This document shows, piece after piece, positions 6,306 to 52,576 of a DNA stretch of 60,371 nt; positions within the stretch are counted from its first letter, which is position 1, and every line of letters starts with the position of its first letter. This stretch comes from Roseiflexus sp. Its GTDB lineage: Bacteria > Chloroflexota > Chloroflexia > Chloroflexales > Roseiflexaceae. The notes under the pieces were generated by a model, which saw only the letters and a list, made by a program, of their open reading frames with translations, searched no databases and was not told the DNA's origin. The DNA lies in contig JAGHYV010000021.1 of assembly GCA_017743475.1 (NCBI GenBank), forward strand, positions 1-60,371, in the 5' to 3' direction. The translations under genes were made by a program, and so were the position numbers.

Positions 6306-6821
6306 ATGAACGTGAGAGTACGCTCCACCAATCGCATCAGCAGTCTCTGGGCTGGGCCAATCATACTCGTTTTCGGGTTGGCCTTTCTGTTTCCGGGATG
6401 GCTAGTGCACACCTCAACCCAAAATCGGATCGCCACAATGCTAGCAACAGAGGGTCGGGTGGTCGACTTCGTTTCTCGCACCACAACATCGGATGGTCAG
6501 CGCAAGACTTACTTCTATCCGGTCGTGGAGTTTCGCACGGCGAACGAGGAGGTTATCCGCTTCGAGGGCGGCGCGGGCAGCAATCCACCGTCGTACCGTG
6601 TCGGCGATACGGTCCGGGTGCTCTACGATCCACAAACGCCACAGTCAGCGTTGATCGATTCGTGGGAACTCTGGTTGCTGCCGGTTATCTTTATAGGGGT
6701 TGGCGGCTTTTTTGCGTTGATAGGCATCTTCGTCTTGCTTGACGCACTGGCGGCTCTACTGAAATTGGGGGGACTGCTCGCATTGCTCGGCATCCTTCTG
6801 CTGCGGCGGAAACGCACGTAG
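6306..6821 (+). CDS. DUF3592-like membrane protein
   Basis: An N-terminal membrane helix (PIILVFGLAFLFPGW) leads to an extracytoplasmic beta-rich segment, YFYPVVEFRTANEEV then YRVGDTVRVLYDP, which is the hallmark order of DUF3592 proteins. One or two C-terminal helices follow (LLPVIFIGVGGFFALIGIFVL) and an Arg/Lys end RRKRT. AGAGGAAG (6295-6302) is a good RBS before the ATG. It is separated from the amylase gene by 110 bases and may be transcribed on its own. No enzymatic function is indicated. Confidence 0.7.
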   Translation: MNVRVRSTNRISSLWAGPIILVFGLAFLFPGWLVHTSTQNRIATMLATEGRVVDFVSRTTTSDGQRKTYFYPVVEFRTANEEVIRFEGGAGSNPPSYRVGDTVRVLYDPQTPQSALIDSWELWLLPVIFIGVGGFFALIGIFVLLDALAALLKLGGLLALLGILLLRRKRT

Positions 6822-6841
6822 CGCGTTCCTGCCCCGATCTG

Positions 6842-7078
6842 GGTGGATTTCGCACTAATTTCGCCGATAACGTGTTCAATGCGCACACGAACCGCTGATA
6901 CGCGCCGATGATCCGCTTTTTCTTGCGGCGCGAGCGTTCTATGGCGCGGCTTCTTCTTCGGTTGCATCACTAGTACGCCGTGCATGTTACATTCCTTGAA
7001 ACCCTGCGCTTGATCCAGCAAATGTGCTGTTGGGAGAGTATACTGCGCTTCATCAGCGATACATATGCCTGATAATAA
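6842..7078 (-). pseudogene. remnant of an IS5/DDE-type transposase C-terminus
   Basis: On the minus strand an open stretch reads ADEAQYTLPTAHLLDQ, then QPKKKPRHRTLAPQEKADHR, then RVSAVRVRIEHVIGE. The KKKPR, EKADHRR and RVRIEHVIG order is the C-terminal part of DDE_Tnp_4/IS5-like transposases, including the region around the last acidic catalytic residue. A stop codon (7079-7081) precedes it and the similarity fades after EHVIGE, so both the N-terminal catalytic core and the true C-terminus are missing. It fills most of the gap between the DUF3592 gene and menE. No terminal inverted repeats were found. Confidence 0.65.
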
Positions 7079-7135
7079 TCATTCAGGGGGTAAGCCGCAT
7101 GATTGGCGCTAGTTGACCCGTCACAGCCGTATGCA

Positions 7136-8611
7136 CTACCCTTCCAGCAATTCTGCCACTGCCGCCCGGTGGATCTTCCCTGATGCGGTGCGCGGTAACT
7201 CGTCAACGACCCGGACGATGCGCGGTTGTTTGTAGCCTGCCAGTCGGGCGCGACTGAACGCCAGGATCTCGCGCACGTCCGCAGCTGGATCGCGCAGCAC
7301 GAGCACAGCGCCGACCTGTTGCCCCCATTCCGGCGAAGGAACGCCGACGACCGCAACATCGGCGACGGCTGGATGCTGACGCAGCACCTGTTCGATCTCA
7401 GCCGGGTAGATATTCTCACCGCCACTGATGATCAGATCGCTGCGTCGCTGCACAACCCACAGATCGCCGTCGGCATCGAGATAGCCGATGTCTCCCGTCG
7501 CAAACCAGGCGTCGGCTCCGAGCGGTGGTTCGCCGAGATACCCGTGCATCAGGGTCGGTCCGCGTATCAGAATATTGCCGTAGACTCCGGGCGGTTGATC
7601 ATGCCCCGCTTCATCGACGACACGCACACTGGTGAATAGCAGTGGTCGTCCGACGCTGCCGGGTTTGCGTCGCACCTGTTCGGGCAGCGCGGTCGCCACC
7701 TGCGATGCCGCCTCGGTCAATCCATAGGTTGTGGCGAGGGGCCATCCCGCCTGCAATGCGCGCTCCAGCAGGTCAGGCGACGCGGCAGCCCCGCCGAGCA
7801 GCACGAGTCGCAGGCGTGACGGCGGCGGTTCATCGCCGAACAGTTCTAACAGGCGGTGGAGCATTGTCGGCACGAGTGAGATCAGCGTCACCGGTGCGGT
7901 TGTCATCCGGTAGGCAATGGCTGCGGCATCGAAGCGTTGCCAGAGATCAACAGCGGTTCCGTAGAGACAGGATCGGAGAAGAATGCTGAGTCCGCCGACG
8001 TGGTACAACGGCAGCGCACAGAGCCAGCGGTCGTCGGGGAGAACGCCAATACGATAGGCTGATGCCATCGCGCTAGCGAAGAATGCGCTACAGGTCAGGA
8101 CTGCGCCCTTGGGACTGCCAGTTGTTCCCGATGTGAATATGATTGCAAAAGGCGCATCAGGGTCGATCACACCTTCACGGAACGCTGCGGGATTGCCCGT
8201 CAACCGGTCAAGATACGTCGGGTGTGGGTCATCGACCGGATCGACACAGAGTAGTCGGGGCGCAGATGGCAGCGCTAGCGCTGTTGGCAGGGTGTCACGG
8301 TCACATATCAGGAAGCGGCACCCTGCGCTGCGCACCTGTATATCAAGTTCTGCCGACGTGAGCCGGGTGTTGAACAGCGCCAGCGCTACCCCGAGGCGCG
8401 GCGCGGCATGAACCGCCAGCGCCGCTTCTAGACGGTTTGGCAACAGAATGCCCAACACATCGCCGCGCGACACGCCGCACACGAACAGACGGGCAGCAAA
8501 CTGCGCCGTCTGTTCGTTCAGTGCTCTGTAGGTCAGCGTCGTCTCGCCGACGATCAGCGCTACCCCATCGGGGCGCGCCATCGCCTGAGCCGAGAGCCAG
8601 TCATGCATCAT
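7136..8611 (-). CDS. menE: o-succinylbenzoate-CoA ligase
   Basis: This is an adenylate-forming enzyme of the ANL superfamily. The P-loop-like motif [15 protein letters not shown], the [12 protein letters not shown] motif and the C-terminal hinge block [19 protein letters not shown] are all intact, and the protein ends in a [10 protein letters not shown]-type lysine motif. It activates o-succinylbenzoate with ATP and loads it onto CoA, the substrate of MenB. The family contains many acyl-CoA ligases; assignment to menE rests on the 4-base overlap with menB and the men operon context. At 491 residues the length is normal. It is the last gene of the operon, and the next sequence downstream is the transposase remnant. 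Confidence 0.9.
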
Positions 8612-9471
8612 GGGCGGCGGGGGAATTTCGAGAAATCGGGCTTGCGCTTCTCAAGGTAGGCTTTCCTGCCCTCGTTGCCTTCTTCGGTCATGTAGAAGAG
8701 CATCGTCGCATCGCCTGCCAGCACCTGGATACCGGTCTGTCCATCCAGAGCGGCGTTGAAGCCAGCCTTGAGGAAGCGGATGGCAATCGGACTCTTCTCA
8801 AGAATCTCCTGCGCCCAGCGCACCGCTTCATCTTCCAGTTCATCAACCGGCACCACCGTGTTCACTAACCCCATCTCCAGCGCCTGCTGCGCGTTGTATT
8901 GGCGGCAGAGGTACCAGATCTCGCGCGCTTTCTTCTGCCCAACAATCTCCGCAAGATAACTTGCACCAAAACCGGCATCGAAACTGCCAACAATCGGCCC
9001 CGTCTGTCCAAAAATGGCGTTGTCTGCCGCAATCGTCAAATCGCAGATCACGTGCAGGACATGTCCACCGCCGATAGCGTACCCGGCAACAGCAGCGATC
9101 ACCGGTTTGGGTATGGTGCGAATGTAGCGTTGCAGTTGCAAGACATTCAAACGGGCGACACCCTGGTCGTCGATGTACCCCGCATGCCCGCGCACTGTCT
9201 GATCGCCGCCGGAGCAGAAGGCATATTTGCCATCCTTCGGGCTTGGACCGTTGCCAGTCAGAATGACAACGCCAACTTCCTGGTTGTGCCAGGCGCTCAG
9301 AATGGCTTCAGTCATCTCGTCAATCGTTTTCGGACGGAAGGCATTGCGGATTTCCGGTCGGTTGAAGGCGATGCGTGCAATGCCGCCGCCGATGTGAAAG
9401 GTAATATCTTCGTACTCCTTCACCTCGGTCCATTCAACCAGCGATGAGAGTTTGGGCGTGAAACGTGCCAT
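8608..9471 (-). CDS. menB: 1,4-dihydroxy-2-naphthoyl-CoA synthase
   Basis: This is a crotonase-fold enzyme with the MenB-type active-site region [13 protein letters not shown] and the oxyanion segment [33 protein letters not shown] is also typical of MenB. It closes the second ring of the naphthoquinone from o-succinylbenzoyl-CoA. The start is fixed by AAGGAGGAG (complement of 9479-9487) seven bases before the ATG at 9471, giving 287 residues. A longer reading from 9492 would include the ribosome binding site. It overlaps menE by four bases and is separated from menD by about 160 bases, in which I see no gene. Confidence 0.95.
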
Positions 9472-9634
9472 ATTGCTGCTCCTCCTTATCATTCAGCTTT
9501 TTTGCGTCAGCACGTACCGGTCTTGATCCAGAAGAGAGTTCCAGATATGCGTCGATGCCACGCCTACGCGGTCACAGTTCAATATTTCAATCATGCAGCG
9601 GTACGATCACATCAGTCTGCCAGATGCATATGTC

Positions 9635-11386
9635 CTACAAGCCGCGAACATCGGATGCTTTTGCGGACCGCATCAGTGCCTGACGACGGGCGAGATCAGT
9701 GCGCGCATCGGTGCGGAGTTCGATGATCGTTGCAGCGCGCGCTTCGATGCTCTCACGGAAGGCGCGCCGGAATGCCTCGCGATCCCGCACCTGCACGTAG
9801 TCCAGACGGTACATTCTCGCCGCGTGAGCAAAATGCAACCCATGCGGCGTCACAAAATAGTCGGTGAATTCCGGCTCGAAGCGGTTGATCGGCAGACGAT
9901 GAAAGATACCGCCGCCATCGTTGTTGAGCAGGACGATCGTTATTGGAACACCACAGCGCCGCACTGCTAGCAAGCCATTCATATCGTGGTAGAATGTAAT
10001 ATCGCCAACAATTGCAGCGATTGGCGCGCTGGGTCGCCCTGCGCCGATGCCAAGCGCAGTCGAGATATTTCCATCAATGCCCGACGCGCCCCGGTTTGCG
10101 AAGGTATGGATACGCCGGGCGCCTGGTTTCCCGAACTGATCGAGATGACGTACCGGTAGACTGTTGCCGACGAAGAGCGCCGCGCCTTCTGGCAGCAGAC
10201 TTACAGCATCGTAGACAGCGGCGCCGTCGAAATACGGTTCGTCGGCAATACCCGCTTCAACTGCCGACCAGACCTGAGCTTCCGCTTCATCGAACATTCG
10301 TGTCCATTCACTCCGGCGCACCTTCAGGTGCGGCAATAGTGCATGAATGAAGGCAGACTCATCCGCTGCGATGAAATGGCTCACCCGATGACTATCATCC
10401 GCCCATACACCGCTGGCGCGTACATGGATAACCACTGATGGCGCCGCTGTGTCGAGATACTGGTTGAGCCACTTCGAGGTGGGAACCGCGCCGAATCGCA
10501 CAACCACATCGGGGGGCGGAAACGAGTGTTCGCCAAAGAGGAATGTCTCGTACCCGCCAATCACACCCGGATAGCCAAAACGGATCCCTGATACACCATC
10601 AACCAGTGCCGGGTAGCCGGTACGATACGCCAGTTCGCTCACCAGCGCGCCAAACTCCCCGCCTGGGCAGCGTGGACCACAGACGATCAGACCGCGTTCG
10701 TGCTGTTGAAGGAGGGGTGTAATCTGCTCGATGACTGTTTCCGGCACTCCAGAGCGCGTTGCAGTCAAGCAGTGCGTGTAGGGCGCACCCGCCTGACGTG
10801 GTTGCGCTGCGTCCGGGGGGGCGGTTATGTCTCCAGCGACCGGCGTCGGTTCGAGCGGTGGACGAAAGGGAAGGTTCAGATGCACCACACCTGGCGGTTC
10901 ACCGCCAGCGACTGCCATCGCTCGCGCCGCCAGCGTCCGCAGGGAGCGCACCACAATCGGCGGCGGGGTCGCTTCCGGCAGCGCCAGATCGACACTCCAG
11001 CGCACAAAGCCGCCAAACATTTTCACCTGATCAATAGTCTGGTTTGCGCCGCTATCACGTAGTTCGTGGGGGCGATCCGCCGTCAGCACCAGCAGCGGCA
11101 CACCTGCCTGGTGCGCCTCCACAATCGCCGGAAAGAAATTCGCTGCCGCTGAACCGGATGTGCAGACAACCGCAGCTGGCGCATCGGTTGCCAGCGCCAG
11201 ACCCAGCGCAAAAAACGCTGCGCTGCGCTCGTCCAGGTGCGAAAAGACTTTAATTGCGGGATGGCGCGCGCATGCCAGCACCAGCGGCGTATTGCGTGAA
11301 CCGGGCGCCAGGCACACAAAGCGTAACCCCGCGCGAGCAAGTTCATCCACCAGTGTCGTTGCGTAAAAAATGTTGCGATTGGTCAT
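9635..11386 (-). CDS. menD: 2-succinyl-5-enolpyruvyl-6-hydroxy-3-cyclohexene-1-carboxylate synthase
   Basis: This is a thiamine-diphosphate enzyme with the usual three-domain layout. The N-terminal pyrimidine-binding domain contains LAPGSRNTPLVLAC and the SGSAAANFFPAIVEA block; the C-terminal domain has ALGIGAG and GDITFYHDMNGLLA, the diphosphate/metal-binding GD...N motif, followed by ITIVLLNNDGGGIFH. It condenses isochorismate with 2-oxoglutarate. Its 583 residues are normal for the family. The gap to menF holds a heptamer repeat array, so co-transcription with menF is likely but not proven. Confidence 0.95.
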   Translation of the reverse strand: MTNRNIFYATTLVDELARAGLRFVCLAPGSRNTPLVLACARHPAIKVFSHLDERSAAFFALGLALATDAPAAVVCTSGSAAANFFPAIVEAHQAGVPLLVLTADRPHELRDSGANQTIDQVKMFGGFVRWSVDLALPEATPPPIVVRSLRTLAARAMAVAGGEPPGVVHLNLPFRPPLEPTPVAGDITAPPDAAQPRQAGAPYTHCLTATRSGVPETVIEQITPLLQQHERGLIVCGPRCPGGEFGALVSELAYRTGYPALVDGVSGIRFGYPGVIGGYETFLFGEHSFPPPDVVVRFGAVPTSKWLNQYLDTAAPSVVIHVRASGVWADDSHRVSHFIAADESAFIHALLPHLKVRRSEWTRMFDEAEAQVWSAVEAGIADEPYFDGAAVYDAVSLLPEGAALFVGNSLPVRHLDQFGKPGARRIHTFANRGASGIDGNISTALGIGAGRPSAPIAAIVGDITFYHDMNGLLAVRRCGVPITIVLLNNDGGGIFHRLPINRFEPEFTDYFVTPHGLHFAHAARMYRLDYVQVRDREAFRRAFRESIEARAATIIELRTDARTDLARRQALMRSAKASDVRGL

Positions 11387-42960: not shown

Positions 42961-44979
42961 CTATGATGCGTGCATACGCTCTCGTTCGCGCACGGATGAA
43001 GGTGCGGGGAGAGGGAAGAACGGCGGCAGTTCACCGACACAGGTAATAGCCAGGCGCTGAGCGGCACGGGTGAATGCCATATACAACTGGCGCGTATTGT
43101 TGCGAATCAGCTCGGCGCGTTCCTCTTCGGACAGGAGCGGGTTCTGTTCTGCCTGATACAGGCGGTGTACGCCCATCACAAAGACGATCGGGCTTTCGAG
43201 ACCGGTGGCGGCGTTCATCGTGCATACCCGCAGATGTTTCCCTGGCGGGACTTTCTTTGGATCGGCAATCGCGGCGCTCCCAAACTCCCGTCGCAGGCGT
43301 TCCAGCATCCGATCAACGCCCTGCCAGTCGGGGTGGATCACCAGCATATGCTCCAACGGTACGCCTCGTTCGTGTAGCGCGCGAATCTCCTGAACAACAC
43401 GGGTCACTTCGTCCTGCTCACTGTCGAGCACGACGACCTGCGGCGGTTCATCGTGCGCTTGAGGCGCGGCGCGTGCGATGATCGCTTCTTCATCATCAGG
43501 CAAACGCATCTGATACATGCGGGAAGCAAAGTCGAGAATGGCGGGAGACGTGCGGTATGATCGGTGGAGGCGCAGGGAACGTCCGCGCACCTCCAATCCA
43601 GCCTCCTTCCACGACTGCCCGCGCCGCAGAAAGCCCTGGGTTGGGTCGGCGACGAGGAACAGATGACCGGCGGGCTTAAGGATCAGCTTAATGATCTCAA
43701 ACCAGATCGGTGCAAAGAACTGTGCTTCATCGATCAGAATGAAATCGTATGGTTGAAAGGATATGCGATCTTCAACCAGCGCGCGCCAGACACGGCGCGG
43801 AACATCGCCCCAATCCAGGCGACCTCGATCTTTTATCTGATCATTGTACGCCAGCATAGCGTCAAACATCCGGTTGCGCATGGCTTCATTCAAACCGAAA
43901 CCTCGCCCTGACCGATTGGCGGCAAGATATTCCCGACGCGTGCTCAATAACCGATCCTTGAACCAATCGATCTCTTCCTGCAACATCCGTTCGGATATCG
44001 ACGTATCTGCCAGGTGCTGACGCCATACATCGGCAATGATCGATGCGCGCTCGCTTTCGTGGATCACGCTCCATCGCTCATCCGACGGCTTATGTTGCCA
44101 GCACCACTGGTGAAAGGTTCGCCACTCGACGCCGGTATCGCCGTTCGTGAGCCGCAGGTAGCGCGCTTCGAGGTCGCGGATTAGCGGACGATTGAATGTC
44201 AACACGAGAATGCGCTTCTGTGGAAAATACTGCCGCAACAGACGGGCGCGATACACGACCAGCAGCGATTTGCCGCTGCCAGCCACACCGCTGACCTGCC
44301 GCACCCCCATGTCACGGCTCGCATTATCGGCTTCTTCCGAAAGTTCCAGATCAACTTTGAGCGCCCATTCCTGCGTCGGGCTGAGGAGATAGTCGGTCAA
44401 CCCGGCGGATGTGTCACGACGCTGACGGACGGTCATCGTTGCGGGGATGACCACCTCAGGCGAGAAGGCTGCGCGCAGGACATTGATCTGATCGTGCGTC
44501 AGGGGGGCGCCGAGATGCGCTTCGATCCAGGCGGGAAACCGCTCAGGACTCAGATCCTCGCGCCCGGCTGCCCAGACGCCCGACGGAAGCGCCTGGCGCA
44601 GATCGCCAGAGGAGATATTCGGAAAGAGAACCACACCAGGAACCTGTTCAGGAGATGGCGCACCCTCGCGTGCGCTGAGCGCAGACCAGAACTGTCGGAA
44701 TGCTTCCTGCTCTGCACCGCCGAACACGATGCCGCTGGCGAACAACTGACCTTGCAGAGCATGTTGCGCATCCTGCGGCGTCGCTGTCGAAACTTTGATG
44801 ATCAGAAATCGCCCGGAGCGGTGGCGCACCAGAAAATCGGGTTCAGGCGCACCGCTGATGACGAGCCGCTGCCAGACGGCGTAATCGTCGTCCGGCAACG
44901 AGCGTTTCAATAATCGAAAGACCTTCCCGGTTTCCGGAGGCAGCGCACCTGCAGGTTTTTCAGGAAACATGGCAGCCAT
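42961..44979 (-). CDS. UvrD-like helicase with degenerate NERD-like N-terminal domain
   Basis: Residues about 25-130 resemble a NERD nuclease-related domain: WQRLVISGAPEPDFLVRHRS, then GRFLIIKVSTATPQDAQH. The Asp of the usual D...ExK is present but the Glu of ExK is replaced by Ile, so it may be inactive. The helicase part has Walker A VSGVAGSGKSLLVVYRARLL (about 230), the DEAQ box FILIDEAQFF, and the motifs RLHRSYRTSPAILDF and LYMAFTRAAQRL, the order of a UvrD-type SF1A helicase. ATG 44979 is chosen; a GTG at 45018 has no RBS. It follows the Upf1-like gene by 45 bases. Inferred role: nucleic-acid remodelling, repair or defence. Confidence 0.8.
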   Translation of the reverse strand: MAAMFPEKPAGALPPETGKVFRLLKRSLPDDDYAVWQRLVISGAPEPDFLVRHRSGRFLIIKVSTATPQDAQHALQGQLFASGIVFGGAEQEAFRQFWSALSAREGAPSPEQVPGVVLFPNISSGDLRQALPSGVWAAGREDLSPERFPAWIEAHLGAPLTHDQINVLRAAFSPEVVIPATMTVRQRRDTSAGLTDYLLSPTQEWALKVDLELSEEADNASRDMGVRQVSGVAGSGKSLLVVYRARLLRQYFPQKRILVLTFNRPLIRDLEARYLRLTNGDTGVEWRTFHQWCWQHKPSDERWSVIHESERASIIADVWRQHLADTSISERMLQEEIDWFKDRLLSTRREYLAANRSGRGFGLNEAMRNRMFDAMLAYNDQIKDRGRLDWGDVPRRVWRALVEDRISFQPYDFILIDEAQFFAPIWFEIIKLILKPAGHLFLVADPTQGFLRRGQSWKEAGLEVRGRSLRLHRSYRTSPAILDFASRMYQMRLPDDEEAIIARAAPQAHDEPPQVVVLDSEQDEVTRVVQEIRALHERGVPLEHMLVIHPDWQGVDRMLERLRREFGSAAIADPKKVPPGKHLRVCTMNAATGLESPIVFVMGVHRLYQAEQNPLLSEEERAELIRNNTRQLYMAFTRAAQRLAITCVGELPPFFPLPAPSSVRERERMHAS

Positions 44980-45024
44980 AGGTTGCACCTGCACCACAAA
45001 CGCACATTGTTCCCGCACTACATA

Positions 45025-46845
45025 CTACCGCACGTGAGGGGCGACACGATACGCACACGATGCAATCAAACCTCGCAATTGCTCAATCAACTCCTGATAC
45101 TCGAGATGTTCCGGCGTCACGGCAAGAAGATAGCTGCTTCCCACAATAATGAGTTTCACCCGAGCGCGAGTGATAGCAACGTTCAACCGTTCCGGTTGCA
45201 GGAAGAAATCGGCGATCCCGGCGGCAAATGCCGGATTCGAGGTTGTCAGCGACAGGAAGATGACATCACGCTCCTGCCCCTGCATTCGCTCGACGGTATC
45301 AACAACAATCGCCTGCCGTTTGTCGCTGTCGGAAACGACCAATCGCAGCAGATTGCGAATGAGACGCCCCTGTGCCCGATATGGTGTGACAACGCCAATT
45401 TCACTGGGTTCGATGCCACATGCCAGCATCTCAGCAATCAGATCGCAGATCAGGTTTGCTTCCTTTGTGCTGCTCGTTGTTGCATTGCGATGCTGCAGAT
45501 CGACGAAAACTTTCGGCGCTTCTGGGTCGAGAATGGTGTTGAAGCGCGCTGGAGGTCGCGGATAGATAATCCGACGTCGGGCGATCTCCTCCGAAGCACA
45601 GCGAAGTTGACCGCCATAGTACTGCCGACCGGGCCATTCGGTTAGTTCGGCGTTCATCCGATAGGTTTCGTCAAGCATCGTGTCGAACCGTCGCCCAACA
45701 AGAGCGCCGAACACCGAGGCGCGGAGCCATGCCTCCTTATGCCGCGCGGTCAGAACCGGCGGCAACTGTTTGTGATCGCCGATGAAAATATACCGTTTTG
45801 CGACCAGCATTCCCATAATGGCGAGAGGCATAGTGATCTGACTTGCTTCATCGAAGATCACCGTGTCGAACTCGACGCCGTTGAGACGCTGCGTGCGCGT
45901 TGCAAACGGCGTGGCGCCAATTGCGTACCTGCCGCTCAACTCAGCAAGCGGCGACCCATCGAACGTCTCGTAGTTCCGAACATCTGCACCTTCGCTGGCG
46001 CTTGCCTGACGCCCGATTTTGCAGAACGACACCGGCGCCGCATCACCGAGACGATCCAGTTCAGCCAGCTTTTCCAGCGCGTTGTTGATCGCCCGGTGTG
46101 TGAAGGCGGTTACGAACACACGTTCGCCATCCTCGACGAGCAGTTGCACAAGACGCGCAAGCACGAGCGTCTTTCCTGTACCGGGAGGTCCCTGGATCAG
46201 CCAGGTCAGGTTGGTGGCATAAGCATTTGCCAGCGCCTCACACTGCGCCGCGTTCAATCCCCACTGCTCTGCGCGCTCATATGCACGCTCATAGCGGGCA
46301 TAGTCGAGCGTCGGGTTCACCTGGCCCATGAGAAGGGGCAGAATGCGCTGCTGACCGATTGTTGTCCCAGCAGTCTGATCGAGGGCGTCGAGGATGTACT
46401 GACTGAAGTCGATATAGCCGTAATCCAGCACCCATCCAGTACGCTGGTGCAGAATTCGTCCCCAATTGACGCTGGGATCGTCAATTGAAACCAGGAGGCG
46501 TGTTTCGTCATCGATTTCAAGTGTACAGAGGGCGCGAGGTTCTTCAAAAGGATTACCGCGGTTCAGCAGCAGGATATCACCTTCGCGGAAGCGCGAGACG
46601 TTGCGGTGGCAGGCAAGTTCGACGATCCCTTCCGGTGTGACGGAAATAACCTGCACCCCTTCGATAGCATCTCCCTGCGCTACGCGCTCGGAAATGGGTT
46701 TCGACCAGGTTTGCACAATCTGCTGGCGCTGGCTGTCGGCTTCGTCGAGCACCAGACGACGCAGTCGGCGAAGGAAATCGGCGGAGGACGATGCAGAACA
46801 CTCTGATGCAGTCACAGGATGCTGCACGCCTTGTACGGTTGTCAT
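45025..46845 (-). CDS. Upf1/Dna2-like SF1B helicase
   Basis: The helicase core starts about residue 200: AAQCEALANAYATNLTWLIQ, then GPPGTGKTLVLARLVQLLVE (Walker A about 219), TAFTHRAINNALEKL, FDEASQITMPLAI (motif II), GDHKQLPPVLTAR, TVERMQGQERDVIFLSL and LNVAITRARVKLIIVG. This is the order of Upf1-type SF1B helicases. The N-terminal 200 residues form a barrel-like domain (VSVTPEGIVELACHR-like) without a known nuclease. AAA_11/AAA_12 family proteins act on RNA or DNA with 5'-3' polarity. It is the first gene of a two-gene operon with the NERD-like helicase, driven by the promoter upstream. Confidence 0.9.
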   Translation of the reverse strand: MTTVQGVQHPVTASECSASSSADFLRRLRRLVLDEADSQRQQIVQTWSKPISERVAQGDAIEGVQVISVTPEGIVELACHRNVSRFREGDILLLNRGNPFEEPRALCTLEIDDETRLLVSIDDPSVNWGRILHQRTGWVLDYGYIDFSQYILDALDQTAGTTIGQQRILPLLMGQVNPTLDYARYERAYERAEQWGLNAAQCEALANAYATNLTWLIQGPPGTGKTLVLARLVQLLVEDGERVFVTAFTHRAINNALEKLAELDRLGDAAPVSFCKIGRQASASEGADVRNYETFDGSPLAELSGRYAIGATPFATRTQRLNGVEFDTVIFDEASQITMPLAIMGMLVAKRYIFIGDHKQLPPVLTARHKEAWLRASVFGALVGRRFDTMLDETYRMNAELTEWPGRQYYGGQLRCASEEIARRRIIYPRPPARFNTILDPEAPKVFVDLQHRNATTSSTKEANLICDLIAEMLACGIEPSEIGVVTPYRAQGRLIRNLLRLVVSDSDKRQAIVVDTVERMQGQERDVIFLSLTTSNPAFAAGIADFFLQPERLNVAITRARVKLIIVGSSYLLAVTPEHLEYQELIEQLRGLIASCAYRVAPHVR

Positions 46846-47236: not shown

Positions 47237-47554
47237 TTAACCGAACATTTCTGCCGACACCTTCCGATCATACTTCTGTTTGCGGCGAATGTCGCGCAGG
47301 GCACGTCGGTTTCGGTAGACGGTAATGAGGACTGGGGCGTAACCCCTGTCGTTAATAACGAGAGTAGCACCCTCTAGATGATGATATTTTTGAAATATTG
47401 CCCGGTCGTCTGGGATGTCCCGCCGCCCCAGGAAAATGTGCAGCGCACCGCCGCTGCGAATGCGACGCCCATGTCGCATGATGAAAGCTACTTCGTCGTC
47501 CGTCAGGTTGCGTTGCGCCTGTCGCACGCGTGCGTGATTGCTCTTGGCGATCAT
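47237..47554 (-). CDS. DUF4258 protein
   Basis: The 105-residue protein has SNHARVRQAQRNLTDDEVAF, then SGGALHIFLGRRDIP and ATLVINDRGYAPVLITVYRN, the strand order of DUF4258, a RelE/toxin-like fold family. A very good RBS (AGGAGGAGG, complement of about 47561-47569) fixes the start at ATG 47554; the frame is open further up but without similarity. No antitoxin gene is adjacent. It is divergent from the sigma factor gene, 240 bases away. Function is unknown; a small RNA-targeting enzyme is one possibility but not supported by residues. Confidence 0.7.
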   Translation of the reverse strand: MIAKSNHARVRQAQRNLTDDEVAFIMRHGRRIRSGGALHIFLGRRDIPDDRAIFQKYHHLEGATLVINDRGYAPVLITVYRNRRALRDIRRKQKYDRKVSAEMFG

Positions 47555-47692
47555 GGCTGCCTCCTCCTGTCTAGATGCGGCGCTCGCTTTGTCTTGAGAT
47601 ACGCAGCGTCTGCACCACATGTTGCGCTCAGCATATCGCGCTTTTATGAACACGATAAGACAGAGGTACGCCTGTTTTTTCATCTTCAGCGG

Positions 47693-47721
47693 TTGACAAT
47701 CGCAGCAGCGTGTGTTAGAGA
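47693..47721 (+). promoter_or_regulatory. putative promoter of the sigma/HTH/ImmA-UvrD operon
   Basis: TTGACA (47693-47698), 17 bases, then TAGAGA (47716-47721). The -10 is weak. A partial heptamer repeat (GAGAACCAAGAACC) overlaps and follows the -10 region. Confidence 0.35.
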
Positions 47722-47796
47722 ACCAAGAACCGACAGGCGCCGAGAGGGGTAATATGCAGTTGAGGCTTTGGCGGTCCGACAAAGGCGGTTGATGCC

Positions 47797-48444
47797 ATGG
47801 CACAGGAACGTTCGTGGTATGAGGTGGTGCAGGAGTGTCAGGAGCGCGTTGCGCGCATCCGCGCGGTGTTGACGACAGGCGGCGCGCTGACGCCTGAGCT
47901 CCAGGCGGACATCAATGCCATCATTCTTGCGATGCGCAACTGGCTCATTGGTCGGTTACGGCAGTATGGATTGACCGAGGATGCATTCGGTGACGTTTTG
48001 CTCGCAGTTATCGAGCAACTCCACCGCGATCTTCGCAGTCCAGGCTTCGGCAGTATGGAGCGCAAGTTCGGCGCATATATTTCAACAACTGTGAACCGCA
48101 TCCTTTACGAAAGAAAACATCGGCAGCAGCACACCTTATCTTCTATCGAGAGCCTGGATGCACCGATTGGCGACGATGGACCGCCGCTCCACGAGGTAAT
48201 TGAAGATACCACACTGGAACGTCTCGCCGAAGAGTATCACGAAAATCAGTTACACCAACAGTTGCACGCAGCAATCGCAGCGCTTCCTGTGATTGAACGG
48301 ATCGTCATCACCTATCGCCTGAGAGGAGTGCGCGGGACCGATATTGCACAAATGCTTGGTATGTCGCCCGCTAATGTTTCACATACCTACAATCGCGCGG
48401 TCAGGCGACTACGTCAGGCGCTCACAACTGGAGATTCATCATGA
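47797..48444 (+). CDS. sigma-70 family (ECF-like) RNA polymerase sigma factor
   Basis: Region 2 is visible in ERKFGAYISTTVNRILYERK, region 4 in PVIERIVITYRLRGVRGTDI with AQMLGMSPANVSHTYNRAVR. The 215 residues and two-region layout fit an ECF or group-4 sigma factor, although the region-2 segment is longer than usual. No anti-sigma factor of the classical membrane type follows. The next gene overlaps by ATGA and encodes an HTH protein. It probably directs transcription of this operon and others; the signal is unknown. Confidence 0.8.
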   Translation: MAQERSWYEVVQECQERVARIRAVLTTGGALTPELQADINAIILAMRNWLIGRLRQYGLTEDAFGDVLLAVIEQLHRDLRSPGFGSMERKFGAYISTTVNRILYERKHRQQHTLSSIESLDAPIGDDGPPLHEVIEDTTLERLAEEYHENQLHQQLHAAIAALPVIERIVITYRLRGVRGTDIAQMLGMSPANVSHTYNRAVRRLRQALTTGDSS

Positions 48445-49046
48445 AAGACCGTTCGTATTTCGTCGAGGCGGCTCTGCGCTACGAGGAGCTGCTTGAGTCT
48501 GGCCAGATCATCAGTCTCGATGAGTTTGTGGCACAGGAACCGCCAGAAGTGCGCGAGGAGTTGCGCGCGTTTCTCGAATTCAATCTGACGCTCGGTGAAC
48601 TGGACGAGCCGGTGGCGCCGACGGCAACAGAGGAATCGCTTACCGATCGCGCGCTGGCACTGGCGCACGCTGCCTGGGAGCGTGAACTCCGCGGCGAACC
48701 GACGCGAAACCTGACCGATCTCCGCCGGGAGCGACAGTTGACTGTCGGGCGTCTGGCGCGACAACTGAGGCTGCCGGCAGGTTTGCTGGCGCGTCTGGAG
48801 CGTGGCAAAGTGAGCGCAACCACTATTCCAGAGCGGTTGATCGAGCGTCTTGCCGGTGCGTTGCACACACCGGTCGCTACAATTCGGGCAGCGCTGCTTG
48901 CGCCGCCGCCGGTCAGCGCTTCAGCCCGGTTGCACGCTGATGATGGCATCATCGAGCCGGAAGAGCCGACAGTCAGTTTTGCACAGGCATTTGCCGACAG
49001 TGCGCCAACTGAGGAAGAGCGCGCCGCATGGGCTGATGTGCTATGA
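48441..49046 (+). CDS. XRE-like helix-turn-helix protein
   Basis: Residues about 90-150 carry a cro/XRE-type HTH: NLTDLRRERQLTVGRLARQL, then RLPAGLLARLERGKVSATTI and PERLIERLAGALHTPVATI. The first 85 residues are acidic and helical (VEAALRYEELLESGQIISLD), the last 50 are acidic and Pro/Ala-rich. It overlaps the sigma gene upstream (ATGA) and the peptidase-helicase gene downstream (ATGA). In ImmA/ImmR and IrrE/DdrO pairs an XRE repressor is cleaved by the M78 peptidase encoded beside it, and that is the inference here. The N-terminal half may instead bind the sigma factor. Confidence 0.7.
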   Translation: MKDRSYFVEAALRYEELLESGQIISLDEFVAQEPPEVREELRAFLEFNLTLGELDEPVAPTATEESLTDRALALAHAAWERELRGEPTRNLTDLRRERQLTVGRLARQLRLPAGLLARLERGKVSATTIPERLIERLAGALHTPVATIRAALLAPPPVSASARLHADDGIIEPEEPTVSFAQAFADSAPTEEERAAWADVL

Positions 49047-52000
49047 GCGTTCGCCGACAACAGATCCGTGCTGCGGCTCGTGATGTGCGCCGCTCCTACT
49101 GTGAGCGCGTCGGCAGTAATGATCTCAACCATCCGCTGCCGCTCGATACCCTTGTAGAGGAAATCTGGGGATTGACAGTCGTCCGGGATGTGCTCGCTGC
49201 CGGCATTCAGGGAAAGGTCGAGCCGGAATACGACGTCATCCGGGTGCAGCGTGATCTTTCACCGACCCGTCAGCGCTTCGTGATAGCCCACGAGATTGGT
49301 CATGTGTGCCTCGAAGGGTTGGATGCCGGTCCGTTCCGCGATACCGACGAAACGCTCGATGAGTGTGCCGCCGGCGCCGACGATGAGACAGCGGTTCGTT
49401 CGTACAACAGGCGCGAGCGACGCGAACAGGAGGCGAACCTGTTTGCACTCGAACTGCTCGTGCCGGCGGAGGAACTCTGGCAGGCGGTTCAGCAGGCGGA
49501 CTGGAGCTTTGAGTCGCTTGCAGCGCGGTTTGCTGTCTCAACCGATGCTATCCGCGCGCAATTGGTGAATGTCTGCTGTCTCGATCCGCTGACCCCATCC
49601 GACGAATCGACCGTTACCCGACATACGTCGTTCACGCTGGACCCGGAGCAACAAGCGGCAGTCGATGCGCCGCTGCCGCTGCTGCTTGCGGCTGGACCGG
49701 GTACCGGGAAGACGCGCAGCATTGTGGCGAAGTATGTGTCACTGGTGCGTCAGGGGGTTGATCCGGCATCGATCCTGGCGCTGACATTCTCGAACAGGGC
49801 CGCGGAGGAGATGCGCGAGCGGATCATTGCTGCACTGCGCCAGGCAGCGCCACGCCTTGCCGGACGTGTCGAGATCAATACGTTTCACTCATGGGGGCTG
49901 AATATCCTGCGCATCTACGGGGCGCGACTGGGGTTGCCGGCAGATGTGCGGCTTCTCGATACTGCCGATCTCTTTCTTCTGCTCTCGAAGCGCCTGGACG
50001 ATCTGCGCCTGGCGTATTTCAAGGATCTGCGCGAACCGACCCGTCATCTGGTGACGATTATTCAGGCGATCAGCCGGATCAAGGATGAACTGTGGTCGCC
50101 GGAAGAGTTCGCGCGTGCGGCAGAGCAGGAAGCGGAGCGCCTGATCAGACAGGCGGAGCAGGATCATCCCGGTGTTTCCCGCAAAGCGACAGAGGCGCGC
50201 GAACGCGTAGTGCGGCAGGCAACCGCGTTACGCGAACTGGCACAGATCTACCCGCGCTACGAAGCGATCCTGCGCGAGGCAGGCGCGCTGGACTATGGCG
50301 ATCTGATCGTATTGCCGGTGAGGGCGCTGCACGATCCGGCAATCGCTGCCGATCTCCGTCGGCGTTACCACTACCTTCTGGTCGATGAATTTCAGGATAT
50401 CAACTACGCTTCAGGCGAGTTGATCCGCCTGCTCGATGGTGGACGCGGACGGGTGTGGGCGGTTGGCGATGCCTGGCAGAGCATCTATCGCTTTCGTGGT
50501 GCATCGGCAGCCAATCTCGATGAGTTCCTGCACCATTACCCGACGGCGCAGGTTCGCCATCTGACGCGCAACTACCGCTCATTGCAACCGATCCTCGATG
50601 CCAGCGCCGCAGTGATGGCCAGCGATCCTCGCGCTGCAACCCGTCCGTTGCTGCAAGCGCAACGCACCGGCGGTGGTCACGCGGTTATCGAACTGGTTGC
50701 ACCGCGTAGCCAGGATGAGTATGCAGCAATTGCGCACGACATTCTGCGCCGGGTGCGATCCGGTCGAGGCAGGAGATTGCCGCGCTGTACCGTACAATCG
50801 TGGATGCTGCACTGCCGGAAGATGCGACGTGCACTGCGTCGTCCACCCCTGGTCATTCGCCGCTGGCGTTTCCGCGACCACGCAGTGCTTTGCCGCACCC
50901 ACGAGCAGGCAAGCGCAATTGCTGCTGTGCTTGAAACGCACGGGATCCCGGTCGATCATCCGGGCAACGTATTCGAGGCGTCAGAGGTCAAGGATGTCCT
51001 GGCAATCTGTGCCCAGATCGGATCGACGAACAGCGCCGGTCTGCTGCGAGCTTTGACGATGCCTGATCACCGTCTTGATCCTGACAACCTCAACCTGCTT
51101 GTCCACCTGGCGCGACAGACGCAACAGGCGCTTCCACGCGCCGCGCGCGATCCGGCGGTTCTTGCGCAGTTGAGTGAAACTGCCCGGCAGACGCTTGCAC
51201 GGGTTCAGACTATCGTCGAAACGCTAGAGAGAGAAGGGGATGTCTGGCACGCGCTGACGACCTATCTTTTCGAGCAGAGTCAGACGATGCGGCAACGGTT
51301 GAACCGTGCTGCGCAGGGTGAGTATGCTGCACAACGGGAACTCGCCACACTCGGTCAGTTGATTACGATTGCGCGCAACTTTGTGCGTCATGCGACGCCG
51401 GAGGAGTGCAGTGCGCCACACTTTATCGCCTACATTCGCGCATTGCGCGCTGCCGGTGTACAACCACGACCGTTGATCGGCGGGCAGGCGGATGCCGTGC
51501 GGGTTATGACCGTCCACGCTGCGAAGGGGCTGGAGTTTCCAATTGTGTATGTACCGGGATTGCAGGAGGGGCGCTTCCCGGCGCGGGGCCATCAGCGTGG
51601 ATTGTCATTGCCTGCCGGTCTTATTCGCGGTTCGGTTGAGCCTGAAGACCGGGAGGAGCGCTACCTTCTCTATGTGGCGATGACTCGCGCACGTGACCGG
51701 TTGGTGCTCAGTCGCGCACTGACGCGGGGCAATGGCGAGAGACCGGCGGAACGTTCTTCACTGTTACCCGGCGATGGTCACGGGAATGGCGCGCCCTGGA
51801 CTGTTCGATCGGTCGTCGGCGCGGCAACCTGTCCGAATCCAGCGCCTGCGATGCGGCTGCACGACACGCCAGCGCCACGGATGCCGTTACCGGCTTCGAG
51901 TATCGATCTCGACGGTTGCAAACGGCGCTTTCTGTATCAGTACGTATATCAGTTGTACGACGATCTTTCGCCGTTTTTACGTATGCATCAGGCAATCCGC

Positions 52001-52576
52001 GAATGCGTCAAGACGCTGACGGAACAGGCGCGTGCGGGTGTTCTTCCCGCCAATGACGATGCAGTGCGATCGCTGGTATACGGTCAGTTGCAACGGTATG
52101 AACTCGACACAGTGCTCTATGCCGGAGACTACGCCGCCGAGGCGTTGCAGCACGTTCAGGTGGTGTGGAATGACCTGCGGAGCGGACGGATTGCGCCTGA
52201 GCGGGTAGACCGGCGCGTGATGGTGCGGCGACCGGCTGGTGTGATCGAAGTGCGGATTGATCGTGAGGAGACGCAGGACGGGGTGACGCGATGGGTATGG
52301 GTGCGACCCGGCGCGCCGCGTGGCGATGATCATCTCTCGGAACGTATGATCCTGTATGCGCTGGCGCGTCAGGAAGTGGGTCATCCCCCTGATGAACTTG
52401 CGATTGCCTTTACCGGAACAGGTGAGACGGTGCGGGTCACACACTCCGAGCGGGTGCTGTCAAACCATACAGCAAAGATTGATCGCCTGCTTGAAGCGAT
52501 GCGTGAGCAACGCTGGGAACCATCGTTTGGTCCACAGTGCGACGCCTGCCCTTTCAACCTGATCTGTCCGGTATGA
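49043..52576 (+). CDS. ImmA/IrrE peptidase-UvrD helicase-Fe-S nuclease-like fusion
   Basis: The 1177 residues show three parts. Residues about 1-185: an M78 zinc peptidase with RFVIAHEIGHVCLE (HEIGH 83-87) and RREQEANLFALELLVP (third ligand Glu about 130), as in ImmA and IrrE. About 195-880: a UvrD/PcrA helicase with LAAGPGTGKTRSIVAK (about 217), ALTFSNRAAEEM, YLLVDEFQDIN, AVGDAWQSIYRFRGA, LTRNYRS, MTVHAAKGLEFPIVYVPG and LYVAMTRARDRL. About 950-1177: a Cas4/AddB-like PD-(D/E)XK domain with Cys in DGCKRRF and CDACPFNLIC at the end, an Fe-S pattern. The nuclease core VIEVRIDRE and WVWVRPG lacks the usual DxK, so cleavage may be lost. It ends an overlapping three-gene operon. Confidence 0.85.
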   Translation: MSVRRQQIRAAARDVRRSYCERVGSNDLNHPLPLDTLVEEIWGLTVVRDVLAAGIQGKVEPEYDVIRVQRDLSPTRQRFVIAHEIGHVCLEGLDAGPFRDTDETLDECAAGADDETAVRSYNRRERREQEANLFALELLVPAEELWQAVQQADWSFESLAARFAVSTDAIRAQLVNVCCLDPLTPSDESTVTRHTSFTLDPEQQAAVDAPLPLLLAAGPGTGKTRSIVAKYVSLVRQGVDPASILALTFSNRAAEEMRERIIAALRQAAPRLAGRVEINTFHSWGLNILRIYGARLGLPADVRLLDTADLFLLLSKRLDDLRLAYFKDLREPTRHLVTIIQAISRIKDELWSPEEFARAAEQEAERLIRQAEQDHPGVSRKATEARERVVRQATALRELAQIYPRYEAILREAGALDYGDLIVLPVRALHDPAIAADLRRRYHYLLVDEFQDINYASGELIRLLDGGRGRVWAVGDAWQSIYRFRGASAANLDEFLHHYPTAQVRHLTRNYRSLQPILDASAAVMASDPRAATRPLLQAQRTGGGHAVIELVAPRSQDEYAAIAHDILRRVRSGRGRRLPRCTVQSWMLHCRKMRRALRRPPLVIRRWRFRDHAVLCRTHEQASAIAAVLETHGIPVDHPGNVFEASEVKDVLAICAQIGSTNSAGLLRALTMPDHRLDPDNLNLLVHLARQTQQALPRAARDPAVLAQLSETARQTLARVQTIVETLEREGDVWHALTTYLFEQSQTMRQRLNRAAQGEYAAQRELATLGQLITIARNFVRHATPEECSAPHFIAYIRALRAAGVQPRPLIGGQADAVRVMTVHAAKGLEFPIVYVPGLQEGRFPARGHQRGLSLPAGLIRGSVEPEDREERYLLYVAMTRARDRLVLSRALTRGNGERPAERSSLLPGDGHGNGAPWTVRSVVGAATCPNPAPAMRLHDTPAPRMPLPASSIDLDGCKRRFLYQYVYQLYDDLSPFLRMHQAIRECVKTLTEQARAGVLPANDDAVRSLVYGQLQRYELDTVLYAGDYAAEALQHVQVVWNDLRSGRIAPERVDRRVMVRRPAGVIEVRIDREETQDGVTRWVWVRPGAPRGDDHLSERMILYALARQEVGHPPDELAIAFTGTGETVRVTHSERVLSNHTAKIDRLLEAMREQRWEPSFGPQCDACPFNLICPV

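Follow-up and report, generated by a model that had tools for sequence, protein, structure and literature searches.

Three genes in a 60,371-nucleotide stretch of Roseiflexus sp. DNA (the window) encode a sigma-70-like factor, an XRE-like HTH protein and a fusion of an M78 (ImmA/IrrE) peptidase, a UvrD helicase and an Fe-S domain (Table 1). In the window the ORFs are joined by ATGA overlaps in the order sigma, HTH, fusion. Open reading frames and domain searches agree with the original prediction on these three products, their overlaps and the 1177-residue length of the fusion, and its placing of HEIGH at residues 83-87 was correct.

Table 1. Features of the locus in the window.
Feature	Coordinates	Strand	Remarks
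Sigma-70-like factor P0001	47797..48444	+	215 aa; TIGR02937, Sigma70_r4_2; HTH gene conserved beside it
XRE-like HTH protein P0002	48441..49046	+	201 aa; HTH_31; predicted peptidase substrate
Fusion P0003: M78 peptidase, UvrD helicase, inactive PD-(D/E)XK/Fe-S domain	49043..52576	+	1177 aa
M78 (ImmA/IrrE) domain, aa 63-174 of fusion	49229..49564	+	Peptidase_M78 (Pfam) E 4.7e-18; capP profile E 1.1e-17
UvrD/PcrA-type SF1 helicase core, aa 199-891	49637..51715	+	GPGTGKT and DEFQD intact
Degraded PD-(D/E)XK domain and four-cysteine Fe-S motif, aa 959-1175	51917..52567	+	AdnA alignment
DUF4258 gene, divergent from sigma gene	47237..47557	-	106 aa; PF14076 E 7.5e-4, below cut-off
Divergent intergenic region common to DUF4258 and sigma genes	47558..47796	.	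TTGACA block

In Roseiflexus, gyrB and a gene for adenylosuccinate lyase lie to one side of the locus and typA to the other. Since it sits among housekeeping genes and is syntenic across species, a defence-island location was rejected. In the window, the trio has neither a ubiquitin operon nor another effector operon beside it. All six Roseiflexus loci have a DUF4258 gene next to the trio and divergent from the sigma gene; such a gene is also next to the trio in L033, L034, L154 and L155, and downstream of the fusion in L153, L181 and L190. The divergent gene is the nearest and best candidate for a target of the trio in Roseiflexus. The intergenic region of some relatives contains TTGACA-N18-TAT(T/C)AT, a housekeeping-type promoter; the upstream regions of the trio look housekeeping-like, with no sign of autoregulation by the trio's sigma factor. 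Two more helicase genes at 42961-46845 (UvrD-like P0006 and IGHMBP2-like P0004) are transcribed away from the trio. Several Roseiflexus loci conserve them, but in G004 neither was found near the trio, and they are thus optional.

The metal-site residues of the M78 domain in the window are H83, E84 and H87 of the HEIGH motif, together with E128, which, going by the family, is the probable third metal ligand. H83, H87 and E128 are present in 34 of 34 M78-containing members and E84 in 33. In all aligned members the M78 domain is joined to UvrD, and there is no stand-alone peptidase of about 200-250 aa among them. In one locus from Abditibacteriaceae (L042, fusion at 6773-10426), HAIGH stands in place of HExxH and the catalytic glutamate is lost. 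No HTH partner gene was found in that genome, a single case that is as would be predicted if the glutamate were needed to cut the HTH protein.

The helicase part of the fusion matches UvrD-helicase (E 9.8e-60) and UvrD_C (E 4.9e-35) in Pfam, and its motifs are invariant across aligned members. A model of the whole fusion protein (mean pLDDT 80.7, pTM 0.78) gave UvrD/AdnB-like structural matches, and its C-terminal domain was reached by AddA, AdnA and RecB alignments. This domain matches PDDEXK_1 in Pfam (E 8.2e-5), and a profile of it matches AdnA (E 2e-12). Its four cysteines (C959, C1166, C1169 and C1175) are kept in 34 of 34 members with a complete region. The D-x-K motif, on the other hand, is absent in every M78 fusion in which the region is present, and the lysine alone survives in two. 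In place of the PD-(D/E)XK motif "DYK", the window has WVR, and relatives have QVK, RIK, LVH and others. No equivalent of AdnA D934, which is changed to alanine in PDB entries 6ppj and 6ppr, exists in the family. An M78-less relative (L180) retains ITDYKSS, and therefore the loss of D-x-K is not an alignment artefact. Thus, of the Cas4/AddB-like Fe-S nuclease that had been predicted, the four cysteines stood, but the catalytic aspartate and lysine did not, and an active Fe-S nuclease was rejected because the motif is lost in all M78 fusions examined. UvrD-Cas4 fusions with nuclease domains were already known (PMC5704561), and the M78 form is, judging from its motifs, a nuclease-dead branch of them. 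After the nuclease was lost, the role of the Fe-S domain is probably DNA binding or ssDNA handling.

The sigma factor scored 47.3 bits against the TIGR02937 sigma70-ECF model (cut-off 42.9) and matched Sigma70_r4_2 (E 2.6e-8). Region 4 was detected; for region 2 the signal in the window came from TIGR02937 alone, with a Sigma70_r2 match in L267, and this region is weak in many members. The HTH protein matches HTH_31 with E 7.5e-6, just under the Pfam cut-off. Its AlphaFold model has a pLDDT of 83.5, and the protein comprises an N-terminal helical module (about residues 1-50), the HTH (about 88-153) and, at the C terminus, a tail (about 163-197) that is conserved. The HTH matched CapH (7t5u, Z 8.0), DdrO (6rnz, Z 7.9) and other XRE domains, which is a generic fold. 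The 201-aa protein did not match the capH profile, and its likeness to CapH is confined to the HTH core. This resemblance of the DNA-binding domain to CapH and DdrO and the complete HExxH...E site of the peptidase bear out the ImmA/IrrE-type likeness that was first proposed. The tail is not a specific signature of a peptidase site, because it is also conserved in G029, where the pair precedes a helicase without M78. The sigma factor of the closest genome (G002, L007 255-902) is about 90% identical to that of the window over residues 1-100, and about 45-75% per 20-residue block over residues 101-215, the region 4 side. The HTH proteins and fusions of the two genomes are 94-95% identical, unlike this C-terminal half (95% for the fusion). 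From these alignments, the promoter-recognition half of the sigma factor looks to have been exchanged.

Another Roseiflexus contig carries a fusion homologue with 77% identity. The trio is kept in relatives whose fusions range from 95% down to 39% identity, and its conservation over this range indicates that it is more than chance. The HTH and fusion genes are not joined by ATGA everywhere: in other Roseiflexus genomes, gaps of up to about 500 bp separate them. In 158 Chloroflexia genomes, 14 had both HTH and fusion, one had the fusion only and one the HTH only, and the trio is conserved in 13. In a sample of 151 Chloroflexota genomes, the fusion was found in 21 (19 from the first pass, together with G166 and with G282, which is truncated at a contig end), and all 21 also have the HTH gene. 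Only one of the 151 genomes (G187, 87% complete) has the HTH gene without the fusion. With the stricter first-pass counts, and with phylogeny ignored, the co-occurrence of fusion and HTH gave a Fisher p of 2e-21. G084 (91% complete) has an intact fusion, and no HTH gene was found in it.

The original prediction asked whether the sigma and HTH genes always adjoin the fusion, and named homologues without such neighbours as a refutation. Such homologues do occur, and constant adjacency was rejected: in Ktedonobacterales and their allies the fusion stands alone. With a wider HTH profile, however, the HTH gene was found elsewhere in the same genomes. A gene for a sigma-region-4 protein precedes the unlinked HTH gene in 10 of 10 pairs tested. 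Since the genomes with a stand-alone fusion carry the sigma-HTH pair elsewhere, the link between fusion and pair is strengthened. In G203 the fusion and the HTH gene are about 225 kb apart, and in three genomes of one genus (G203, G219 and G289) the distance from the pair to the fusion is constant at 223-226 kb. No special promoter common to the unlinked fusion and sigma genes was seen by eye, both being housekeeping-like. The adjacent arrangement occurs on both sides of the family trees and the unlinked one in a single clade, and thus adjacency is probably ancestral, although midpoint rooting is weak evidence for this.

Other neighbours were seen at individual Chloroflexota loci. In G029 (L151 1-4327), the helicase after the sigma-HTH pair is of UvrD type, has no M78 and contains a segment resembling an exonuclease, apparently of the DnaQ type, indicating that the pair can persist without the M78 peptidase. 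In Chloroploca/Viridilinea (L031 2875-9460 and L155 1-5950), a large UvrD-like, possibly HelD-like, protein and a coiled-coil protein follow the trio; L031 also encodes a dynamin-like GTPase, and L155 a SNF2 helicase further on. In G035 (L035 666-6724), the gene after the fusion encodes a ThiF and Prok-JAB protein, and those beyond it encode a HerA-like protein and a 470-aa product. G216 (L178 4503-6469) has a second, weaker match to the HTH profile between the HTH gene and the fusion.

Outside Chloroflexota, a plasmid search gave fusion matches on 91 records, of which 77 cover at least 80% of the fusion and 45 of the 91 are from Acinetobacter; phage records and viral contigs gave none. Twelve plasmid loci were inspected. 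Upstream of the fusion, each of the 12 has an HTH gene (profile E 1e-10 to 1e-23) and, before that, a further gene. The latter is sigma-like in most by profile, Pfam or annotation, with a weak signal in several. HExxH, the helicase motifs and the cysteines are present in all 12, and D-x-K is absent. In 11 of the 12, the trio is directly before or beside ubiquitin-like genes, which are either multiubiquitin-ThiF-DUF6527 or a small ubiquitin-like protein with DUF7665, JAB and ThiF. In L272, DUF7665 alone was identified by Pfam among the genes of this operon, and in Robbsia (L271) the operon is divergent from the trio. Multiubiquitin-ThiF-DUF6527 follows the trio in Agrobacterium, Cereibacter, Mesorhizobium, Rhizobium, Acinetobacter, Klebsiella, Leptolyngbya and Escherichia coli CP61. 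In E. coli CP61_Sichuan (L276/L277 comparison), the six-gene form is on the chromosome near fimH, which makes the cassette directly testable in laboratory E. coli. E. coli ES2 retains the ubiquitin-like genes, but sigma, HTH and almost the whole helicase have given way to an IS1 element.

The same ubiquitin-like genes have other neighbours elsewhere. In Enterobacter, multiubiquitin-ThiF-DUF6527 is preceded by a CapK/CapS-like pair (weak Pfam support; layout as in PMC13373217), and its neighbours in Synechocystis include an M78 and an HTH protein that match capP and capH. Therefore, the trio takes the place of known DNA-damage controllers. On plasmids, the adjacent ubiquitin-like conjugation operon is probably its target.

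Because fusion and HTH gene co-occur, and because the trio occupies the same position as CapH+CapP- and CapK+CapS-like genes, the trio is likely to be a transcription controller that responds to DNA damage or foreign DNA. The UvrD motor and the Fe-S domain would engage damaged or processed DNA, and ssDNA made or held by the motor would activate the attached M78 in cis, as free ssDNA does for PprI/IrrE and CapP. The activated peptidase would then cut the HTH protein, a putative repressor and/or anti-sigma partner, and this cleavage would lift repression of the operon or release the sigma factor to transcribe target genes. We consider it reasonably probable that this explanation holds as a whole, from a damage-responsive fusion through HTH cleavage to a freed sigma factor. 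Of its parts, the HTH protein is a fairly likely substrate of the peptidase. That ssDNA gates the peptidase of the fusion has about an even chance of being right; this step is drawn by analogy, and the suggestion that a sensor is built into the helicase fits PprI and CapP, both of which are activated by ssDNA (PMC10904395). Release of the sigma factor by HTH cleavage is a possible step that we hold with slightly less than even confidence. Several observations speak against the explanation: the sigma-HTH pair of G029 lacks this peptidase, G084 seems to have an intact fusion with no HTH gene, the HTH tail is no specific cleavage signature, the window has no effector operon next to the trio, the upstream regions give no hint of autoregulation, and sigma region 2 is often weak. 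If the explanation is true, it would account for the predicted Fe-S cluster that the Cas4-like domain kept after its nuclease was lost.

Alternatively, the fusion might be an effector in its own right, working as an anti-phage or repair helicase of Gabija/RecB-like type. M78 and HTH would then control only the expression of the fusion, as in ImmA/ImmR, and the sigma factor would drive the operon. The helicase core does score against GajB and DRT helicase models, its motifs never vary, G029 retains the sigma-HTH pair with a different helicase, and HerA, SNF2 helicase, dynamin or HelD-like neighbours occur at some loci. However, the nuclease motif is dead in every M78 fusion, and no GajA (OLD/TOPRIM nuclease) was seen among the neighbouring genes examined. 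The plasmid trio also precedes or adjoins a ubiquitin-like operon where CapK/CapS or CapH/CapP are found elsewhere, and the regulator pair is unlinked in Ktedonobacterales, so that self-control of an operon alone does not explain the co-occurrence. We regard an effector role as unlikely.

Less probable still is that M78 is a protein- or DNA-binding platform with no protease activity, and the trio a structural repair complex with RNA polymerase, the helicase being brought to transcription complexes by sigma and HTH. Going by the titles of PMC5397179 and PMC3797733, RNA polymerase can be bound by PcrA/UvrD, sigma and HTH are paired wherever tested, and L042 still carries a fusion without the catalytic glutamate. 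On the other hand, HExxH with E128 is conserved in 33 of 34 members across several phyla, and the genome of L042 appears to lack the HTH partner, as expected if cutting it requires the glutamate. A toxin-antitoxin-like unit, in which DUF4258 is the toxin and the peptidase degrades an HTH antitoxin on damage, is very improbable despite DUF4258 being beside the trio in many Chloroflexota loci, since it has no match in Chloroploca (L031, L032), in stand-alone fusion loci or in unlinked HTH loci, was not seen in plasmid annotations, and the separated HTH genes pair with sigma instead.

The damage-responsive controller can be compared with systems already described. Three DNA-damage controllers were listed in 2026, namely CapW, CapH+CapP and CapK+CapS (PMC13373217). 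No description of the sigma-HTH-fusion set was found in the literature searched on M78/IrrE/ImmA-UvrD fusions or on multiubiquitin, though Bub papers may mention it. The view that no such system had been described fits the literature searched, but the set is no isolated Roseiflexus oddity: related trios are present in at least four phyla. We conclude that the trio, which is widely distributed, is probably a peptidase-HTH controller to which a motor and a sigma factor have been added. Tentatively, and with somewhat less than even confidence, it could be a fourth controller class for ubiquitin-like and other stress operons of bacteria, in which a motor reads DNA damage mechanically, a peptidase in the same chain cuts a repressor or anti-sigma factor, and a dedicated sigma factor is turned on; the class would be old in Chloroflexota and plasmid-spread through Proteobacteria and Cyanobacteria.

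CapH+CapP, which control CBASS/Bub operons (Lau et al. 2022, as cited in PMC13373217), resemble the trio in having an M78 peptidase and an HTH protein, and the M78 of the fusion also has HExxH and the putative third metal ligand. CapH+CapP are promoter-proximal to immune or ubiquitin-like operons, a placing that the trio has in 11 of the 12 plasmid loci but was not seen to have in the window. In the trio, however, the peptidase shares its chain with a UvrD helicase and an Fe-S domain, and the HTH protein of about 200 aa has extra N- and C-terminal parts and is paired with a sigma factor. IrrE(PprI)/DdrO of Deinococcus shares the M78 peptidase with an XRE partner and the DNA damage logic, but has no sigma factor and a different HTH protein, and in PprI HTH and GAF-like parts follow M78 where the fusion has UvrD. 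CapK+CapS and CapW respond to ssDNA/DNA damage and precede the same kind of ubiquitin-like operon (PMC13373217), but act by a kinase/STAS or WYL mechanism with no protease, helicase or sigma factor. For the motor and Fe-S part of the fusion, UvrD-Cas4/AdnAB-type proteins are the best structural and profile matches. UvrD-Cas4 (PF12705) and AdnAB/AddAB/RecB likewise have a UvrD motor and then a Cas4-like Fe-S PD-(D/E)XK domain, whereas the fusion has lost D-x-K, gained an N-terminal M78 and has sigma-HTH partners. In the trio, a single chain combines sensor, motor and protease, and there is a sigma output that is absent from CapW, CapH+CapP and CapK+CapS.
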